Under the pieces are notes generated by a model that saw only the letters and a program-made list of their open reading frames with translations, was not told the origin of the DNA and ran no database searches. 35,721 nt of DNA from a bacterium (GTDB taxonomy: Bacteria > BMS3Abin14), in contig JARGFZ010000027.1 of NCBI GenBank assembly GCA_029210965.1, positions 1 through 35,721 of the forward strand. Direction: 5' to 3'. Below are positions 3,028-11,058 of this stretch, piece by piece. Each line of letters opens with the position of its first letter. Position 1 is the first letter of the stretch. Position numbers and translations under genes: made by a program.

Positions 3028-4335
3028 ATGTCTCACAAACAGGAACTTCAAAAAAAGATAGAAGATCGCACCGCCGTCTGCTGTATCATCGGTCTCGGCT
3101 ATGTGGGTCTTCCCCTGGCCGTTGAGCTGGCAGCCACCGGGTTCACTGTTTACGGGATCGATCTGAACACCAATAAGGTTGAGGCGGTTAACCGCGGTGA
3201 ATCCTACATCCCCGATGTTAGCAACAAGATGGTCAAGGAGGGTGTAGATAGCGGAAAACTCAAGGCAACCACAGACTTTAGTGTCGTCAAAGATTGCGAT
3301 GTCGTGTCCATCTGCGTGCCGACGCCCCTCAACAAGACTCGTGACCCTGATATTTCTTACATTATTTCGGCCCTGGAAGTAGGGATCGTTCCCCATGTGC
3401 ACCCGGGTATGCTCGTAGTTCTGGAAAGCACCACCTATCCAGGTACGACCGAGGAGGTTATTGTGCCCGCTTTGATCAGCGGGAACCTGAAGGTCGGTGA
3501 AGATATCTTTGTCGCCTTTTCACCCGAGAGGGTCGATCCGGGCAACCCCCACTTTCAGACCGGTAACATACCCAAGGTTGTGGGTGGAATGACTAAAAAC
3601 TGCTGTCACATAGCGACCCTCCTCTACAGCTCTTTTCTTGCCAAGGTCCACCCGGTCAGTTCAGCCGCCGTGGCAGAAATGGTCAAGATCCATGAGAACA
3701 CATTCAGGAGCGTCAACATCGCCCTTGTAAATGAGCTGGCTCTCATGTGCGACCGGCTGGGCATCGATGTCTGGGAGGTCATCGAAGGTGCTTCCACCAA
3801 GCCTTTCGGTTTCATGCCCTTTTATCCCGGTCCCGGTCTGGGAGGGCACTGTATCCCCATCGACCCTTACTACCTGTCCTGGAAGGCACGATCAGTGGGG
3901 TTCGAGGCCCGGTTTATCGAACTTGCCGGACAGGTGAACAGTTCCATGCCCATGCACGTCGTAAACAAGGCCTCAGATGCCCTTAACAGCGTCGGAAAGG
4001 CCCTGAGAGGCTCTAATGTCCTCATTCTGGGGGTTGCCTACAAAAGCGACATCGATGACGAGAGAGAGTCTCCTGCCATCGACATCATAGATCGGCTTAT
4101 TGCAAAAGGAGCAATGATTACCTACCTGGATTCCTATATCCCGGAACTGGATGTGGGCACGACGGTCCTCAGCGCCTCCGAGATCAGCCTTGAACTTCTC
4201 CAGGAGACTGACCTTGCGATCATCGTTACGGCCCACAGCGATTTTGACTACGACTTCATTCTGGAGCAGGTGCCCCTGATCCTGGATACGAGAAACGCCA
4301 TCAAATCCAGGCAAGATAAGGTGTGGAGGATTTGA
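3028..4335 (+). CDS. wbpA: UDP-N-acetylglucosamine/mannosamine 6-dehydrogenase (WbpA/WecC family nucleotide sugar dehydrogenase)
   Basis: The enzyme oxidises C6 of a UDP-N-acetylhexosamine to the uronic acid with two NAD+, in the cytoplasm, for surface polysaccharide. The N-terminal Rossmann motif IGLGYVGLP is at residues 21-29. LESTTYPGTTE, FSPERVDPGN, KVVGGMT and the central catalytic loop GGHCIPIDPYYL follow, with nucleophile Cys275, then the C-terminal UDP-binding domain. The YPGPGLGGHCIPIDPYYLSW stretch and FSPERVDPGNP resemble WbpA/TviB rather than enterobacterial WecC, so UDP-GlcNAc is the more likely substrate. The start at 3028 (435 aa) is preferred over the upstream 2983 codon because GGAGAG lies just before it and the extra residues are unlike the family. 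The last codons overlap the start of the next gene, which supplies the TGA stop. Confidence 0.92.
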   Translation: MSHKQELQKKIEDRTAVCCIIGLGYVGLPLAVELAATGFTVYGIDLNTNKVEAVNRGESYIPDVSNKMVKEGVDSGKLKATTDFSVVKDCDVVSICVPTPLNKTRDPDISYIISALEVGIVPHVHPGMLVVLESTTYPGTTEEVIVPALISGNLKVGEDIFVAFSPERVDPGNPHFQTGNIPKVVGGMTKNCCHIATLLYSSFLAKVHPVSSAAVAEMVKIHENTFRSVNIALVNELALMCDRLGIDVWEVIEGASTKPFGFMPFYPGPGLGGHCIPIDPYYLSWKARSVGFEARFIELAGQVNSSMPMHVVNKASDALNSVGKALRGSNVLILGVAYKSDIDDERESPAIDIIDRLIAKGAMITYLDSYIPELDVGTTVLSASEISLELLQETDLAIIVTAHSDFDYDFILEQVPLILDTRNAIKSRQDKVWRI

Positions 4336-4655
4336 TCGCATGGCAAAAAGCAAGGGTATTGATTAAAAAAGTCCATGAAGTTTCCGGTAAAGGCTTCTTT
4401 TATAGGGACAGAAATCTAAAAAATCAAATTTGCCGGACCAGCGTTTCTGTAATGTCCAACGTTGCAGAAGGCTTTGAAAGGGAAGGGGAAAAAGAGTTTG
4501 TGCAGTTCCTTTCACAAGCCAAAGCATCCTGTGGTGAAGTCAGATCCCCATTATTTGTTGCTTTGGATCGCGGTTATGTAAATGATGTAGAGTTTAATGC
4601 CCTTCTCAATTTGTCACTTGAAACGAGTAGAGTGATAGCAGGATTGATAGGGTAA
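4323..4655 (+). CDS. Four-helix-bundle protein (23S rRNA intervening-sequence protein family), 5' end fused onto wbpA
   Basis: This small protein belongs to the family often called S23 or 23S rRNA-IVS protein. The family forms a helical bundle; its molecular role is unknown. Diagnostic features are DLIAWQKARVL at the N terminus, QICRTSVSVMSNVAEGFER in the middle, EFVQFLSQAKASCGEVRS, and a final helix LNLSLETSRVIAGLIG. The length, 110 aa, is slightly short. The frame opens with GTG at 4323, thirteen bases before the end of wbpA, and a TAA in this frame at 4317-4319 rules out a longer start. The usual first residues (compare MSKITRF in the second copy at 7409-7696) are absent, so the gene seems to have been inserted into or against the 3' end of wbpA. 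A-rich codon use differs from its neighbours, which suggests separate origin. Expression from this GTG is uncertain. Confidence 0.78.
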   Translation: MEDLIAWQKARVLIKKVHEVSGKGFFYRDRNLKNQICRTSVSVMSNVAEGFEREGEKEFVQFLSQAKASCGEVRSPLFVALDRGYVNDVEFNALLNLSLETSRVIAGLIG

Positions 4656-4772: not shown

Positions 4773-5759
4773 ATGAGTGATATGAAGCGAATTTTGGTAA
4801 CGGGAGGAGCAGGATACATCGGCAGCCATGTCGTCCTCGCTCTCGGAGAAGCAGGCTACGATGTCCTGACTTTCGACAACCTTTCCTCCGGCAACAGGTG
4901 GGCTGTAATTAAAGGTGAATTTGTCCAGGGTGATCTGTCTGACCGGGAAACCTTCAGGGAGACGGTTCGGAACTTCAAACCGGATGCCGTGATGCACTTT
5001 GCCGCCTCCATCGAGGTGGGTGAAAGCGTTAGATATCCTGTCAAGTATTACTTTAACAATACCGTCAATCTCCTCAATACTGTTGATGTTTTGTCCAGCG
5101 AAGGGGTAGGAAAGATGATCTTTTCCTCTACCGCCGCTGTCTACGGAAACCCCGAAATAGTACCCGTAACGGAAAGTTCACCCCTGGCACCCATCAACCC
5201 TTACGGCGCTTCCAAGATGATGAGTGAGAGGATCCTTGCCGATCAAGGTGAAAGCGGCACCGATTTCAGTTACATCTCGCTAAGGTACTTTAACGTCGCT
5301 GGAGCCGATCCCGGGGGACGGTTGGGTCAGGTGTATAAAAACCCCACCCACCTTATTACGCGGGCGCTCAAAACTGCCAAAGGGGAGTACGAAAGACTGC
5401 AGATCTTCGGAACCGACTTTCCCACACCTGATGGAACCGGTATCAGGGATTACATACACGTCACCGACCTTGCCGACGCACATATTCTGGCTTTGGAGAA
5501 CCTTCTGGCGGGGGGTGCCAACGACACGCTCAACTGTGGTTACGGAACCGGATTTTCTGTGACGGAGGTGATCAATGCGGTGAAAAGGGTCACCGGGACC
5601 GATATTAAATTGGAAAAAATCGGCAGGAGGGCAGGGGACCCTTCGGAACTGATCGCTGACAGTTCACTTATCAGGAAAAGGTTGTCATGGGAACCGAAAT
5701 ACGACGATCTCGATACCATCGTACGGACCGCCTGGAATTGGGAGAAAGGCCGTAATTAG
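4773..5759 (+). CDS. galE: UDP-glucose 4-epimerase
   Basis: GalE interconverts UDP-glucose and UDP-galactose (or the N-acetyl forms) with bound NAD+, feeding galactose into surface glycans. It is an extended short-chain dehydrogenase. GGAGYIG is at residues 11-17, the FSSTAAVYG strand carries the catalytic Ser/Thr (118-120), and YGASK carries Tyr144 and Lys148. SLRYFNVAGADPGGRLGQ and GTGIRDYIHVTDLADAHILAL are typical GalE signatures. The length of 328 aa is normal for the family. The ATG at 4773 has GGGAG 5 nt upstream; a second ATG at 4782 is possible. The four-helix-bundle gene sits between it and wbpA. A hairpin with a T-run follows the stop codon, so transcription probably ends here. Confidence 0.95.
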   Translation: MSDMKRILVTGGAGYIGSHVVLALGEAGYDVLTFDNLSSGNRWAVIKGEFVQGDLSDRETFRETVRNFKPDAVMHFAASIEVGESVRYPVKYYFNNTVNLLNTVDVLSSEGVGKMIFSSTAAVYGNPEIVPVTESSPLAPINPYGASKMMSERILADQGESGTDFSYISLRYFNVAGADPGGRLGQVYKNPTHLITRALKTAKGEYERLQIFGTDFPTPDGTGIRDYIHVTDLADAHILALENLLAGGANDTLNCGYGTGFSVTEVINAVKRVTGTDIKLEKIGRRAGDPSELIADSSLIRKRLSWEPKYDDLDTIVRTAWNWEKGRN

Positions 5760-5933: not shown

Positions 5934-7298
5934 ATGGGTGTATTCCTGGTTGCAGAGGATGATCGTGATTTCAGAACACTATTGACCGATGTGTTCAAAG
6001 ATGCCGGTCACCAGGTGGACCACGCCGTCGACGGCAGGCAGGCCCTGGAAATGGTCAGTGCGCGCAAGTACGATGTCGTGCTTGCGGATATCCAGCTCCC
6101 TGTAAGGGACGGAATGGAAGTACTGCGGGAAACAAAGTATAGAAGCCCCGACACGGAAGTCATCATGATGACCGCTTACGGCACTCTCGACAGCGCTGCC
6201 CAGGCCATGAAACTTGGCGCCTCCGATTATCTACAGAAACCTTTCAGCATCCTCGAACTCGAAATGAGAGTGGAAAAGGCGCTTCGGAACAGGAGCCTGG
6301 CCAAAGAGGTTGCTTATCTCAGGCACACCCAGGAAGTGATCTACAGGATCGAAGATATCATCGGGAAAAGCGATGGGATAAAAAGCGTCCTGGGACAGGT
6401 AAAGGTCCTCGCCAACGACCCATTCCCTGTATTTATCAAAGGTGAGACCGGTACCGGCCGTCTTCTTATTGCTGGAGCCATTCATTTTAACAGCGGCCGG
6501 AGCGAGAACGGTTTTATCCGGGTCAACTGTACGATACAAAATCCGGACCATCTGGAAAGTGACCTGTTCGGGCACGCGGTGGACGCATTCCCCGGTGCGA
6601 AGAACGCAAGGATCGGGAGGATCGAACAGGCCAACGGGGGGACCATTTTCATTGAGGAAATAACGGAAGCGCCTCTGGCGATCCAGGTTAAACTTCTGGA
6701 GTTCATCGAGGAAGGGAGCTTCCGGAGGCTCGGTGGATCAAGGGATGTTTCAGTGGACGCAAGGGTTATCGCATCCACCAGCAGAGATCCGGAAAAGGAG
6801 ATCAAGGCCGGGAAGTTGATGCCGGAACTCCTTGAGGCCCTCAGTCATAAAGTGATCAACATTCCGCCCCTCAGGGAAAGGCCTGAGGATATTCCTCTCC
6901 TGGTTGAATATTTCATCGAAAGGCTGCGCCTTGAACTGGACAATGGACGGGCACTCAATATCACCGACGGGGCTATTGGAAAGCTGAAGGGCTACGACTG
7001 GCCTGGTAATATCCGTGAGCTGAAAAACGTTCTGGAGAGGGCACTTTTTACCAGCCCCAAGGATACCCTGGATATCGCGGATATCCAGCTCCCGGATGAG
7101 CACCCGGCCGCCGGTTCAGTGGGTCTTACTGACAGGAAGCTCAAAGAACTGGAAAAGGAAGCCGTTCTGGAAGCCCTGGAAAAGAGCAATTATGTTCAGA
7201 AAGAAGCTGCAAAGCTCCTGGGCATCTCCAAGAGGGTGATTCACTACAAGATTCAGCAGTTTAATATAAAGCATCCGCGCTGGATCAAGAACAAGTAA
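5934..7298 (+). CDS. NtrC-type response regulator with degenerate sigma-54-interaction AAA+ domain
   Basis: It has three domains: receiver (about 1-120), AAA+ (about 145-370) and Fis-type helix-turn-helix (about 410-454). The receiver looks competent, with acidic D9/D10, phospho-acceptor D52 in LADIQLP, TAYG and KPF. The AAA+ domain has lost the features needed for ATP-driven sigma-54 activation. Walker A reads GETGTGR (170-176), with Arg for the invariant Lys. The GAFTGA loop reads DAFPGA (217-222). Walker B ends FIEE (239-242) rather than FLDE. The usual FREDLYYRL arginine-finger segment reads LMPELLEAL (295-303), with both arginines gone. PPLRERPEDIPLL and YDWPGNIRELKNVLERA are kept. It probably binds DNA and responds to phosphorylation but does not hydrolyse ATP or open sigma-54 promoters; this is inference. 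The ATG at 5934 follows GAGGGG. No histidine kinase gene is nearby. Its targets may be the flanking sugar genes. Confidence 0.88.
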   Translation: MGVFLVAEDDRDFRTLLTDVFKDAGHQVDHAVDGRQALEMVSARKYDVVLADIQLPVRDGMEVLRETKYRSPDTEVIMMTAYGTLDSAAQAMKLGASDYLQKPFSILELEMRVEKALRNRSLAKEVAYLRHTQEVIYRIEDIIGKSDGIKSVLGQVKVLANDPFPVFIKGETGTGRLLIAGAIHFNSGRSENGFIRVNCTIQNPDHLESDLFGHAVDAFPGAKNARIGRIEQANGGTIFIEEITEAPLAIQVKLLEFIEEGSFRRLGGSRDVSVDARVIASTSRDPEKEIKAGKLMPELLEALSHKVINIPPLRERPEDIPLLVEYFIERLRLELDNGRALNITDGAIGKLKGYDWPGNIRELKNVLERALFTSPKDTLDIADIQLPDEHPAAGSVGLTDRKLKELEKEAVLEALEKSNYVQKEAAKLLGISKRVIHYKIQQFNIKHPRWIKNK

Positions 7299-7330
7299 TG
7301 TACTTGAACTTAACTTGTTCTTGATCCAGC
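7279..7330 (+). repeat. Perfect 18-bp inverted repeat spanning the regulator stop codon
   Basis: Bases 7279-7296 cover the last codons of the regulator and its stop codon, and are repeated exactly in inverted orientation at 7313-7330. The 16-base spacer would form the loop. A TTTT follows at 7333-7336, so the hairpin may serve as a terminator or 3' stabiliser. One arm is protein-coding, which suggests that the outer arm arose as an inverted copy of the gene end. Confidence 0.8.
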
Positions 7331-7341
7331 GAGTTTTACGT

Positions 7342-7385
7342 GCTCGCTACGCTCAGGTTCCACGTTCCAACTTCCAGGTTCCAGC
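7342..7385 (-). repeat. GGAAC-word / GAGCGAAGCGAG repeat unit, copy 1 (reverse orientation)
   Basis: Read on the minus strand this is a run of GGAACYTGGAAC-like words ending in CTGAGCGTAGCGAGC. The same composite unit occurs at 10994-11046, 14895-14945, 18909-18958 (reverse) and 27601-27644. It abuts the 3' end of the small minus-strand gene. Confidence 0.7.
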
Positions 7386-7408: not shown

Positions 7409-7696
7409 TTATTCGGAGGAGATATAACCATGATCCAATGCCAGATGCAGGAGTGAGCGTAATTCGCCTGCTGAGCCTTTGGCCATGGAGAGAAACTTCA
7501 CAAACTCCCGGTTGCCATCACGTTCAAATCCTTCAGCGATGTTTGCGGGAACCGAGATGACGGCCCGGCATAACTGATTCTTTAGAGCAAAATCCCGAGA
7601 AAACTCCTCAGATTTGGTCAGGGTCAATATGACGCGTATCAGCTCCCTCGCTTTTTGCCAGGTGAGAAGATCCTCAAAACGTGTAATTTTGGACAT
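7409..7696 (-). CDS. Four-helix-bundle protein (23S rRNA intervening-sequence protein family), C-terminally truncated
   Basis: This is a second member of the same small-protein family as the gene at 4323-4655, on the opposite strand. It starts MSKITRFEDLLTWQKAREL and continues with LCRAVISVPANIAEGFERDG and EFVKFLSMAKGSAGELRSLL. It then stops after HGYISSE at 95 aa, where members usually continue about 20 residues through a last helix. Bases beyond the stop run into a GGAAC-word repeat, so the 3' end looks replaced by intergenic repeat. The translation signal is intact (GGAGGA five bases before the ATG at 7696), so a shortened product may still be made. It stands alone between a regulator and ugd, both on the plus strand. 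The two copies here differ substantially from each other. Function is unknown. Confidence 0.78.
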   Translation of the reverse strand: MSKITRFEDLLTWQKARELIRVILTLTKSEEFSRDFALKNQLCRAVISVPANIAEGFERDGNREFVKFLSMAKGSAGELRSLLHLALDHGYISSE

Positions 7697-7947
7697 AAAT
7701 TCCTCCGCATTGTTTACGGTCTTCCGTTCGATGGCGGGAAAATTATTCTCAACAATCGTGCCATTGTAGAAAATCGTATTGTGATCAGGTTAAATATTGA
7801 AGATTTTCGTGTTTTGGTTCATCATAATTTGTTTTAAAAAAGGATTGTTTTCCCAAATTACCGTTACATGGGAATGAAACAGAATGAAAAGACCTGAGTG
7901 GAAGCCTGGATTGTCTACTTGAAACCTGGAACTTGGAACCTGGAACT

Positions 7948-7966
7948 GAAAAACCGGAGGTTTTTC
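7948..7966 (+). promoter_or_regulatory. Hairpin enclosing the ugd ribosome-binding site
   Basis: GAAAAACC (7948-7955) and GGTTTTTC (7959-7966) are perfect complements separated by GGA. The Shine-Dalgarno GGAGG (7956-7960) lies partly in the loop and partly in the stem, directly before the ATG at 7968. Such a fold could limit ribosome access to ugd mRNA. The three-base loop and A/T-rich stem mean stability is modest. The preceding bases 7905-7947 are GGAAC-word repeats. Confidence 0.45.
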
Positions 7967-7967
7967 C

Positions 7968-9275
7968 ATGCACATCGCAATTATAGGAACTGGATACGTT
8001 GGACTCGTAACGGGAACCTGCTTTGCCGAATTCGGGGTGGAAGTCACCTGTGTGGACAAAGATGAAAGCAAGATCACTCCACTTTTGAAGGGGGAAATCC
8101 CTATCTATGAGCCAGGTCTTCAAGAGCTGGTAAAGAAGAATATAAACGATGGCAGGCTCCGTTTTACAACTGATTTGAGCGAGGGCGTCAAGGATGCCCT
8201 TGTTGTCTTCATAGCCGTTGGAACACCTCCAAGGGAGGACGGCAGCGCGGACCTGAGTCATGTCTTGCAGGTTGCAGGGGAAATCACGGAATGCATGGAC
8301 ACGTACAAGGTGATCGTCACCAAGAGCACAGTGCCCGTGGGTACCGGTGAAAAGGTCAGGAAGGTGCTTTCCAAACGCTTGCCGGCAGAGAAGTTCGACG
8401 TTGCCTCTAACCCCGAGTTCCTGCGCGAGGGTTCTGCTATCGGGGATTTCATGCGGCCAGACAGGGTCATCATCGGCGCGGAAACGGAGCAGGCCAGAGC
8501 TATTTTAAGAGACCTTTACAGACCTCTCTACCTTATCGAGACGCCTTTTGTGTTCACCAATGTCGCCACTGCTGAGCTTATCAAATATGCCTCCAACGCC
8601 TTTCTTGCCACAAAGATCACCTTTATCAACGAGATGGCCAACCTGTGCGAACAGATCGACGGTGATGTCCATGTGGTCGCAAAAGCCATGGGACTTGACG
8701 GCAGGATCGGACCAAAGTTTTTACGTGCCGGTCCGGGATATGGGGGTTCCTGTTTCCCCAAGGACACCCTTGCTCTGTTGAACATATCCAGGGAACTGGG
8801 ACACCCATCGAAGATAGTTAAATCGGTAGTGGAGGTGAACGATGCTCAGAAACAGCGTGCTTACGGCAAGATTAAGGATATCCTCGGCGGTGATGTAAAG
8901 GGGAAAGTTATTGGTCTTCTGGGCCTCGCATTTAAACCGAACACAGATGATTTCAGGGAATCTCCGGCCGAGGTCATCATCAGGGGGATAAGGAACGATG
9001 GCGGGACAGTACAGACTTTTGATCCTGCCGCCATGGACCAGGCCAGAAGCTATCTGGGCGAGGAAGGTATCACCTTTTGTGAGAACAGCTATGATGCCGT
9101 TACGGGCGCTGACGTTATGGTCGTCGTCACGGAATGGAACCAGTTCCGCCTTCTGGACCTGAATAAATGCAAGAAACTGCTAAAGAGCCCCAACCTGGTG
9201 GATCTTAGAAATGTGTACGAACCGAAAGCAGTACGGGACCTGGGGTTTAATTATACGTCTATAGGTAGAGTGTAG
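7968..9275 (+). CDS. ugd: UDP-glucose 6-dehydrogenase
   Basis: It oxidises UDP-glucose to UDP-glucuronate with two NAD+ in the cytoplasm. The N-terminal IGTGYVGL (residues 6-13) is the Rossmann dinucleotide site, with acidic D30 after it. KSTVPVGTGEKV, NPEFLREGSAI (Glu general base region) and PGYGGSCFPKDTLAL with nucleophile Cys262 follow, then GLAFKPNTDDFRESPA of the C-terminal UDP-binding domain. It is 435 aa, as expected. The substrate is judged UDP-glucose from the NPEFLREG and GGSCFPKD signatures, which separate it from the wbpA-like enzyme upstream. The next gene is a UDP-glucuronate 4-epimerase-like SDR, giving a two-step route to UDP-GlcA and UDP-GalA. Translation may be modulated by the hairpin at 7948-7966. 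Confidence 0.95.
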   Translation: MHIAIIGTGYVGLVTGTCFAEFGVEVTCVDKDESKITPLLKGEIPIYEPGLQELVKKNINDGRLRFTTDLSEGVKDALVVFIAVGTPPREDGSADLSHVLQVAGEITECMDTYKVIVTKSTVPVGTGEKVRKVLSKRLPAEKFDVASNPEFLREGSAIGDFMRPDRVIIGAETEQARAILRDLYRPLYLIETPFVFTNVATAELIKYASNAFLATKITFINEMANLCEQIDGDVHVVAKAMGLDGRIGPKFLRAGPGYGGSCFPKDTLALLNISRELGHPSKIVKSVVEVNDAQKQRAYGKIKDILGGDVKGKVIGLLGLAFKPNTDDFRESPAEVIIRGIRNDGGTVQTFDPAAMDQARSYLGEEGITFCENSYDAVTGADVMVVVTEWNQFRLLDLNKCKKLLKSPNLVDLRNVYEPKAVRDLGFNYTSIGRV

Positions 9276-9440: not shown

Positions 9441-9502
9441 TCCTCCTGTAACAAGAACACGGATGGCCGCTTATGTTTAACCGTGTTCTTGTAACAGGAG
9501 GG
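9441..9502 (+). repeat. 22-bp inverted repeat flanking the epimerase start codon
   Basis: Bases 9441-9462 are the inverted copy of 9481-9502 at 20 of 22 positions. The inner arm is codons 4-10 of the epimerase, including its internal ACAGGAGGG sequence; the outer arm lies in the intergenic region. The 18-base loop contains the start codon (9473) and a five-codon frame, ATG at 9463 to TAA at 9478-9480, that overlaps it. No normal Shine-Dalgarno precedes 9473. Confidence 0.75.
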
Positions 9503-10689: not shown

Positions 10690-11058
10690 GGAAGAGCAGT
10701 GTAAAGTGCAAGGTGTAGAGTGCAGAGGGTAAAAACCCTCCAGAGTCCAGGGCTTGCCAAGCCGAAGCCTTGGCGAAGGCTGGTCCAAAGTCCAGCGTAA
10801 GAGAAAAAACAACCTTGCGATCATTAGTTCATTTGCCATTATTGGAGTTCCATGGATCAAGGTTTTTCTCTGGATGCTCTGCTCTGGACTCTGGACTGAT
10901 CCTACACTCTGGACTGATTTAACCCGTTGTGATATTTAACAAAATTCGGCCTTAACTGACTTTGCGAAGAAGGTGCCCACTGTTCCTGGTTTGACTTGGA
11001 ACCTGGAACCTGGAACCTGGAATCTGAGCGAAGCGAGCGAACTTGAGACCATAAATTC
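10690..11058. repeat. 369-base gap made largely of word repeats, including GGAAC/GAGCGAAGCGAG unit copy 2
   Basis: The gap begins with GTGTAAAGTGCAAGGTGTAG-type words (10698-10728) and a short GAGGGT/ACCCTC hairpin (about 10725-10741). CCAAAGTCCAG words follow (10778-10797), then CTCTGGACTCTGGACTGAT words (10879-10920). It ends with the GGAACCT tandem and GAGCGAAGCGAGCGAAC (10994-11046), immediately before the PHP gene. Frames inside it look like chance. Confidence 0.65.

Follow-up and report, generated by a model that had tools for sequence, protein, structure and literature searches.

A response regulator from a bacterium of the GTDB lineage Bacteria; BMS3Abin14 raises the question of what a protein descended from the activators of sigma-54 polymerase does once its motor domain has degenerated. 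Its gene, called D below, was found in the window, the whole stretch of 35,721 nucleotides analysed here (GenBank assembly GCA_029210965.1, contig JARGFZ010000027.1, positions 1 to 35,721), as an open frame of 454 codons with an ATG at 5934 and a stop at 7298. The gene and its parts were placed as follows.

5934..7298, + strand: D gene, a response regulator of 454 aa with receiver, degenerate AAA+ and Fis helix-turn-helix (HTH) domains (ORF, Pfam, six orthologues).
5946..6272, + strand: receiver, residues 5-113, with D9, D10, D52 (6087-6089), T80 and K102 kept (Pfam, alignment).
6441..6461, + strand: Walker A, GETGTGR, residues 170-176, K176R; Arg in six of seven D proteins (alignment).
6582..6599, + strand: L1 loop, DAFPGA (217-222) instead of GAFTGA (alignment).
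6648..6659, + strand: Walker B, FIEE (239-242), D241E in six of seven D proteins, catalytic Glu242 kept (alignment).
6780..6782, + strand: sensor I, Ser for Asn283; Asn absent from all seven D proteins (alignment).
6816..6842, + strand: arginine-finger segment, LMPELLEAL (295-303) instead of FREDLYYRL; R296 and R302 lost in the window protein (alignment).
6999..7025, + strand: sensor II region, WPGNIREL-K, R361 kept, E364 replaced by Lys or Arg in all seven D proteins (alignment).
7140..7262, + strand: Fis-type HTH, HTH_8, residues 403-443 (Pfam).

The layout of receiver, Sigma54_activat AAA+ domain and Fis HTH makes D an NtrC-type (group I) enhancer-binding protein by descent. Pfam matched the receiver with 101 bits, AAA_lid_14 at residues 314-385 and Sigma54_activat at residues 142-304 with 160 bits, as against 240 bits for the canonical twin of D in genome G005 (this twin is called C below). 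Annotation based on Pfam will label D a sigma-54 activator, and caution is needed on this point. D fell short of the NCBIfam equivalog cut-offs for AtoC (345 of 714 bits), NtrC (318 of 558.6), NtrX (303 of 600) and the PEP-CTERM response regulator (301 of 502.6).

The losses listed in the first-pass annotation (Walker A Lys, GAFTGA, Walker B Asp and both arginine fingers) were all found at the positions given there, as were the features it reported as remaining, namely D52, PPLRER (residues 311-316), WPGNIREL (356-363) and the Fis HTH. With R176, E241, S283, M296 and A302 the window protein does not carry the catalytic set of a sigma-54 activator, and its L1 loop has Pro where Thr or Ser is expected at the fourth position. 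R256, which is conserved elsewhere, was also lost. The Walker B catalytic E242, the glutamate-switch N198 and the sensor-II R361 were kept, and so the nucleotide pocket appears remodelled rather than erased. Across the D proteins E242 and R361 are invariant, the P-loop glycines are kept and N198 is nearly so.

The structure of D was predicted with AlphaFold2 on 15 sequences. The model had a mean pLDDT of 85.9, about 90 in the AAA+ core, and a pTM of 0.56, so the arrangement of its domains is uncertain. Single AAA+ chains of PspF, FleQ, FlrC, ZraR and NtrC1 matched it with TM scores of about 0.84-0.94 by their own length, and superposition on the AAA+ chains of PspF, FleQ and NtrC1 gave about 1.6-3.0 Å over about 245 residues. 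The best full-length matches were NtrC1 and NtrX. The AAA+ fold of D is predicted to be kept; the model is silent on activity.

Other activators of the same genome served as a control. The genome encodes RpoN, and the 15 other sigma-54-activator-type proteins inspected in it (found by similarity) all have canonical motifs: Lys in Walker A, Asp-Glu in Walker B, Thr or Ser in a GAFTGA-type loop, and an FRxDLxxR-type segment. Window D was the one degenerate protein among them. Among the other NtrC-type proteins listed, none outside the D clade showed its set of losses. This absence, together with the same or most of the losses in six orthologues, argues that the losses are not due to chance. C was not found in the window genome, where the next best activator-type protein is 40% identical to D.

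Orthologues were sought in 12 genomes of the phylum, all of one family. D was present in seven species, the six others being 52-59% identical to window D and fully or mostly degenerate like it; the canonical C was present in five genomes and is 48-52% identical to window D. A tree was built with the five motif stretches left out; a protein from Acidobacteriota and one from a different family served as outgroups. The seven D proteins formed one clade (support 100/99), sister to the five C proteins, with 99/96 at the node joining D and C. Grouping of D as an artefact of the motif columns is ruled out, as the clade stands with these columns removed. Truncation of the canonical copy in G003 was rejected, as its C-terminus is masked with N in the sequence. 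When 386 genomes were searched, only two proteins of other phyla scored beyond E 1e-101, both of them canonical, and within these genomes the D form looks confined to the phylum. The same substitutions thus occur in relatives, and the relatives with normal motifs are paralogues; orthologues with normal motifs, which the first-pass annotation had named as the mark of recent decay, were not encountered in close relatives. Losses common to the orthologues rule out recent decay.

The losses are graded within the clade. Thr220 of GAFTGA is absent from all seven D proteins (P, P, E, D, D, D and E in its place), as is the sensor-I Asn, the basal protein D_G011 included. D_G011 is also the only one to keep the Walker A Lys (K176), the Walker B Asp (D241) and R302, and R296 is kept only in D_G005 and D_G010. 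As Thr is lost in all seven and the Walker residues survive in D_G011, contact with sigma-54 was probably lost earlier than the Walker residues. At 16 positions a residue is fixed in at least six of seven D proteins and absent from C and the outgroups. These include K350, Q385, V366 and residues 10, 12 and 16 in the first helix of the receiver. This helix is the usual kinase-docking surface, and D may therefore answer a kinase other than that of C. The receiver of D_G008 also looks worn. A regulator with the opposite kind of loss was noted in an outgroup (L159:5625-6986, G035), with canonical AAA+ motifs and a receiver that has no phospho-acceptor Asp (LLEVQ).

Purifying selection acts on D. 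With all D proteins taken together, codon-model omega was about 0.10 in the AAA+ domain (0.07 for C), 0.05 in the HTH and 0.13 in the receiver; these clade-wide values are rough, synonymous sites being likely saturated on deep branches. Fixing omega at 1 cost D about 217 (AAA+), 96 (HTH) and 126 (receiver) lnL units. Pairwise dN/dS for D_G005 and D_G010 was 0.15 overall and 0.17 in AAA+, and 0.07 for both in C. These values, with the losses carried by the orthologues, bear out the view of the first-pass annotation that the domain was repurposed and not decayed. Its picture had missed that D is the degenerate member of a pair, adjoined in relatives by C and a PAS histidine kinase.

The neighbourhood of D was compared between genomes. 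In the window it comprises:

4323-4655, + strand: 23S_rRNA_IVP-type homologue.
4773..5759, + strand: galE-like epimerase, upstream neighbour of D, syntenic in G008 (synteny, Pfam).
7409-7696, - strand: 23S_rRNA_IVP-type gene (Pfam match).
7968..9275, + strand: UDP-glucose dehydrogenase (ugd), downstream neighbour of D (synteny, Pfam).

The ugd gene follows D in G003, G005, G008, G009 and G010. In G005, G010 and G009 a PAS histidine kinase gene is followed by C, D and ugd, among nucleotide-sugar genes, and then by PHP-domain, TPR and oxidoreductase genes (canonical C with its PAS kinase lies at L119:3589-6180, and also in L006 and L170). C belongs to the same family as D and has the same DNA-binding end, but none of its catalytic or sigma-54 motifs has been lost. 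In G003, 14 kb separate D from the kinase and C, and D is still ahead of ugd. In the window D occupies the same locus, between galE and ugd, with the kinase and C missing; no remnant of either was found in the window besides D itself, and none above the level of ordinary paralogues elsewhere in the genome, which is 99% complete. G008 (80% complete) resembles the window in that D is present and the kinase and C were not found. In G011 D stands on one contig, and a second contig ends with the kinase and, after it, the start of C; in G007 the kinase and C are followed by the contig end. G001, G002, G004 and G006 yielded neither C nor D at the thresholds used, nor a close kinase. Outside the phylum, kinase-C pairs with canonical motifs were found on an Acidobacteriota contig (L006), which is short and carries no D, and in G068 (another family), with an epimerase gene nearby. 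The tie of D to sugar genes is by position only. Genes or homologues of the 23S_rRNA_IVP type recur among the nucleotide-sugar genes of the D cluster in several genomes (further cases are L115:4971-5393, three copies in L117, and L158:2-244).

The DNA-binding ends of D and C are far more alike than the rest. D-C identity is 45% in AAA+ and 80% in the HTH, the HTH being above AAA+ in 28 of 28 pairs, whereas C-outgroup pairs give 57% in AAA+ and 36% in the HTH (above AAA+ in 1 of 100). The D-C pattern is the reverse of that of ordinary paralogues, which are more alike in AAA+ (57%, against 36-38% in the HTH). Two features were placed at the end of the gene.

7194..7295, + strand: C-terminal DNA-binding stretch, residues 421-454, near-identical to C; the tract looks homogenised in G005 (alignment).
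7278..7331, + strand: hairpin with a 19-bp stem over the end of D, one arm being the coding end of D (-33.4 kcal/mol, z -9.3).

In the G005 pair, residues 421-454 include 33 positions with the same amino acid in D and C, of which 27 also have the same codon; the corresponding count for AAA+ is 31 of 77 (Fisher p 5e-5; the tests were chosen after the alignment had been seen). This sharing also exceeds that of cross-species D-C pairs (17/31 and 16/31; p 0.02 and 0.01), and the G005 alignment has one mismatch in the last ~75 coding bases followed by ~17 matching bases past the stop. The G005 tract is likely to reflect recent gene conversion over the recognition helix. The excess in G009 is weaker (p 0.05) and a pooled comparison gave p 0.02 from non-independent pairs; both fit but do not prove repeated conversion events. 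The hairpin at 7278..7331 is a probable transcription end, and hairpins on or just after stop codons of D and C were also seen in L119 (after 6180 and after 8112).

Intergenic regions were searched for regulatory sites. No sigma-54 promoter with a good -24/-12 was found in the cluster intergenic regions of any genome, and two-mismatch matches in the window were fewer than in shuffles (4 vs 7.8). No sigma-70 promoter-like sites above chance were found around D, and no dyad common to at least three genomes in intergenic regions near the cluster; candidate shared dyads were ribosome-binding-site, hairpin or two-genome matches and were discarded. Among the perfect sigma-54 sites found genome-wide, some lie in front of pilin-like, ccmE-like and outer-membrane-like genes; none of the sites could be tied to C or D. 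Across species of the phylum such matches precede similar-looking genes of these three types (L143 and L152; L144 and L151; L146 and L149). Dispersed intergenic repeats of the type GGAACCTGGAACCT occur at 7342-7383, 7917-7959 and 10994-11038 of the window and in intergenic regions of relatives; in G004, G009 and G011 similar units precede ugd. A near-perfect 21-nt inverted repeat (9442-9501; -39.8 kcal/mol, z -6.8) surrounds the start codon of an epimerase at 9473; one arm is coding and the other an inverted copy upstream, and at the RNA level the repeat would mask the start region.

We consider it probable that D is an ATPase-dead DNA-binding twin, uncoupled from sigma-54, which competes with or replaces the active C at shared sites. 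D would have arisen when the response regulator in a PAS kinase/sigma-54-activator pair linked to nucleotide-sugar genes was duplicated. Its AAA+ domain no longer has the Thr that contacts sigma-54, nor the sensor-I Asn; in most lineages the Walker A Lys, the Walker B Asp and the arginine fingers have gone as well. To judge by these residues, it could neither hydrolyse ATP nor remodel sigma-54 polymerase. Selection has preserved the receiver and the AAA+ fold, and most strongly the DNA-binding end. The product would be a receiver-controlled, motorless DNA-binding protein at an operator that, going by the protein sequences, C would also recognise. Where C exists D would compete with it or temper it. 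In the window species, where C and the kinase were not found, D would act alone and independently of sigma-54, probably as a repressor, although this direction is presumed. This is the simplest reading because the DNA-binding end has been held equal to that of C. Against it, no operator was found, the shared site being deduced from protein sequence; the first receiver helix differs between D and C, so that input may differ; and the G008 receiver is worn. The persistence of D without C in the window genome (G000) speaks against D being nothing but an antagonist of C.

More tentatively, and with the balance somewhat against it, the active activator and its motor-dead twin may form a built-in on/off pair on the same operator, the dead twin of the window lineage having outlived C and taken over its sites. 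If so, the recognition helix was kept the same partly by gene conversion while the AAA+ halves diverged to 45%, and the window lineage offers a natural case of sigma-54 activation being exchanged for control that does not depend on sigma-54. The series from active C, through the partly degenerate G011 and more degenerate proteins beside C, to a degenerate protein without C allows a test of how a sigma-54 activator becomes a sigma-54-independent regulator; the idea that a dead twin on the shared operator sets the threshold of activation can also be tested.

Second to the motorless competitor stands a non-catalytic subunit in mixed rings with C, tuning its ATPase and sigma-54 contact in the manner of HrpR/HrpS or FleQ/FleT. 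D adjoins C in G005, G009 and G010, its AAA+ fold is kept and under selection, and hetero-oligomers of paralogous activators are known (PMC9542535). We regard this as unlikely. It is weakened by the persistence of D without C in the 99%-complete window genome, C being likewise not found in G008; both arginine fingers and conserved residues such as R256 are lost, and D and C are 14 kb apart in G003.

Rather doubtful too is a sigma-70-type activator like Rhodobacter capsulatus NtrC or VpsR, which may bind ATP without hydrolysis and recruit ordinary RNA polymerase. The Arg Walker A and Glu-Glu Walker B shared by six of seven D proteins, and the invariant E242 and R361, look as if the pocket were still used. 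Arg for Lys in the P-loop usually weakens nucleotide binding, and the sites searched for around D gave nothing above chance. R. capsulatus NtrC itself needs ATP binding and not hydrolysis (PMC10274813). The present data do not distinguish activation from repression, and sigma-70 activation fits D nearly as well as repression does.

A copy decaying towards a pseudogene is very improbable: D evolves faster than C in AAA+ and one receiver is worn, but frames of ~450 codons are intact in seven species, omega is far below 1 in every domain and 16 positions are fixed. Least credible of all is a working, unusual ATPase with Arg Walker A and Glu Walker B that activates sigma-54, for which the conserved pocket residues and the K176, D241 and R302 of D_G011 speak, but which faces the loss of the GAFTGA Thr throughout, of both arginine fingers in window D, and the lack of a good sigma-54 promoter in local intergenic regions. 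Contact with sigma-54 is made through the GAFTGA loop, in which the Thr (86 in PspF) is important, and opening cannot proceed without ATPase activity (PMC7057263). Activation of sigma-54 by D is very unlikely because, judged from its sequence, contact and ATPase residues have both been lost.

Loss of GAFTGA from NtrC-type proteins is already known in about 110 homologues, most commonly as Thr to Pro, Glu also occurring (PMC3162934), and relatives without it are repressors or work at sigma-70 promoters (PMC3162934, PMC10274813). D belongs with the sigma-54-independent NtrC-type proteins: like TyrR, DhaR, HupR, VpsR and the NtrC of R. capsulatus and Caulobacter, it is of activator descent, has lost GAFTGA and has kept its DNA-binding domain (PMC3162934, PMC10274813). 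Proteins of the TyrR/HupR/VpsR kind lost GAFTGA by substitution or deletion; D differs in having also lost the Walker A Lys, Walker B Asp, sensor I and arginine fingers, and in the active sister adjoining it in relatives. Caulobacter NtrC, unlike D, still needs its Walker A and B residues (PMC10274813). NtrX of Brucella (PDB 5m7n, 5m7o, 5m7p), which the title of its structure paper calls an unusual NtrC-family member, has the same receiver-AAA+-Fis layout and is among the nearest full-length folds; it is 27-29% identical to D in structural alignment and is not an orthologue.

Loss of sigma-54 contact and activator pairs are thus already known; in the open-licence literature we found no report of a degenerate Walker A in the NtrC family and no description of a receiver-type pair of active and motor-dead twins, which appears undescribed there. 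HrpR/HrpS, FleQ/FleT and VnfA1/VnfA3 each likewise consist of two related activators, which interact or cooperate (PMC9542535). HrpRS and FleQ/FleT are without N-terminal regulatory domains (PMC9542535), whereas D and C both keep the receiver. A partner in the same genome, as in these pairs, is present in relatives as C and was not found in the window genome. D and C differ from all three pairs in that one twin is motor-dead by sequence, and in that this dead twin exists alone in the window species.
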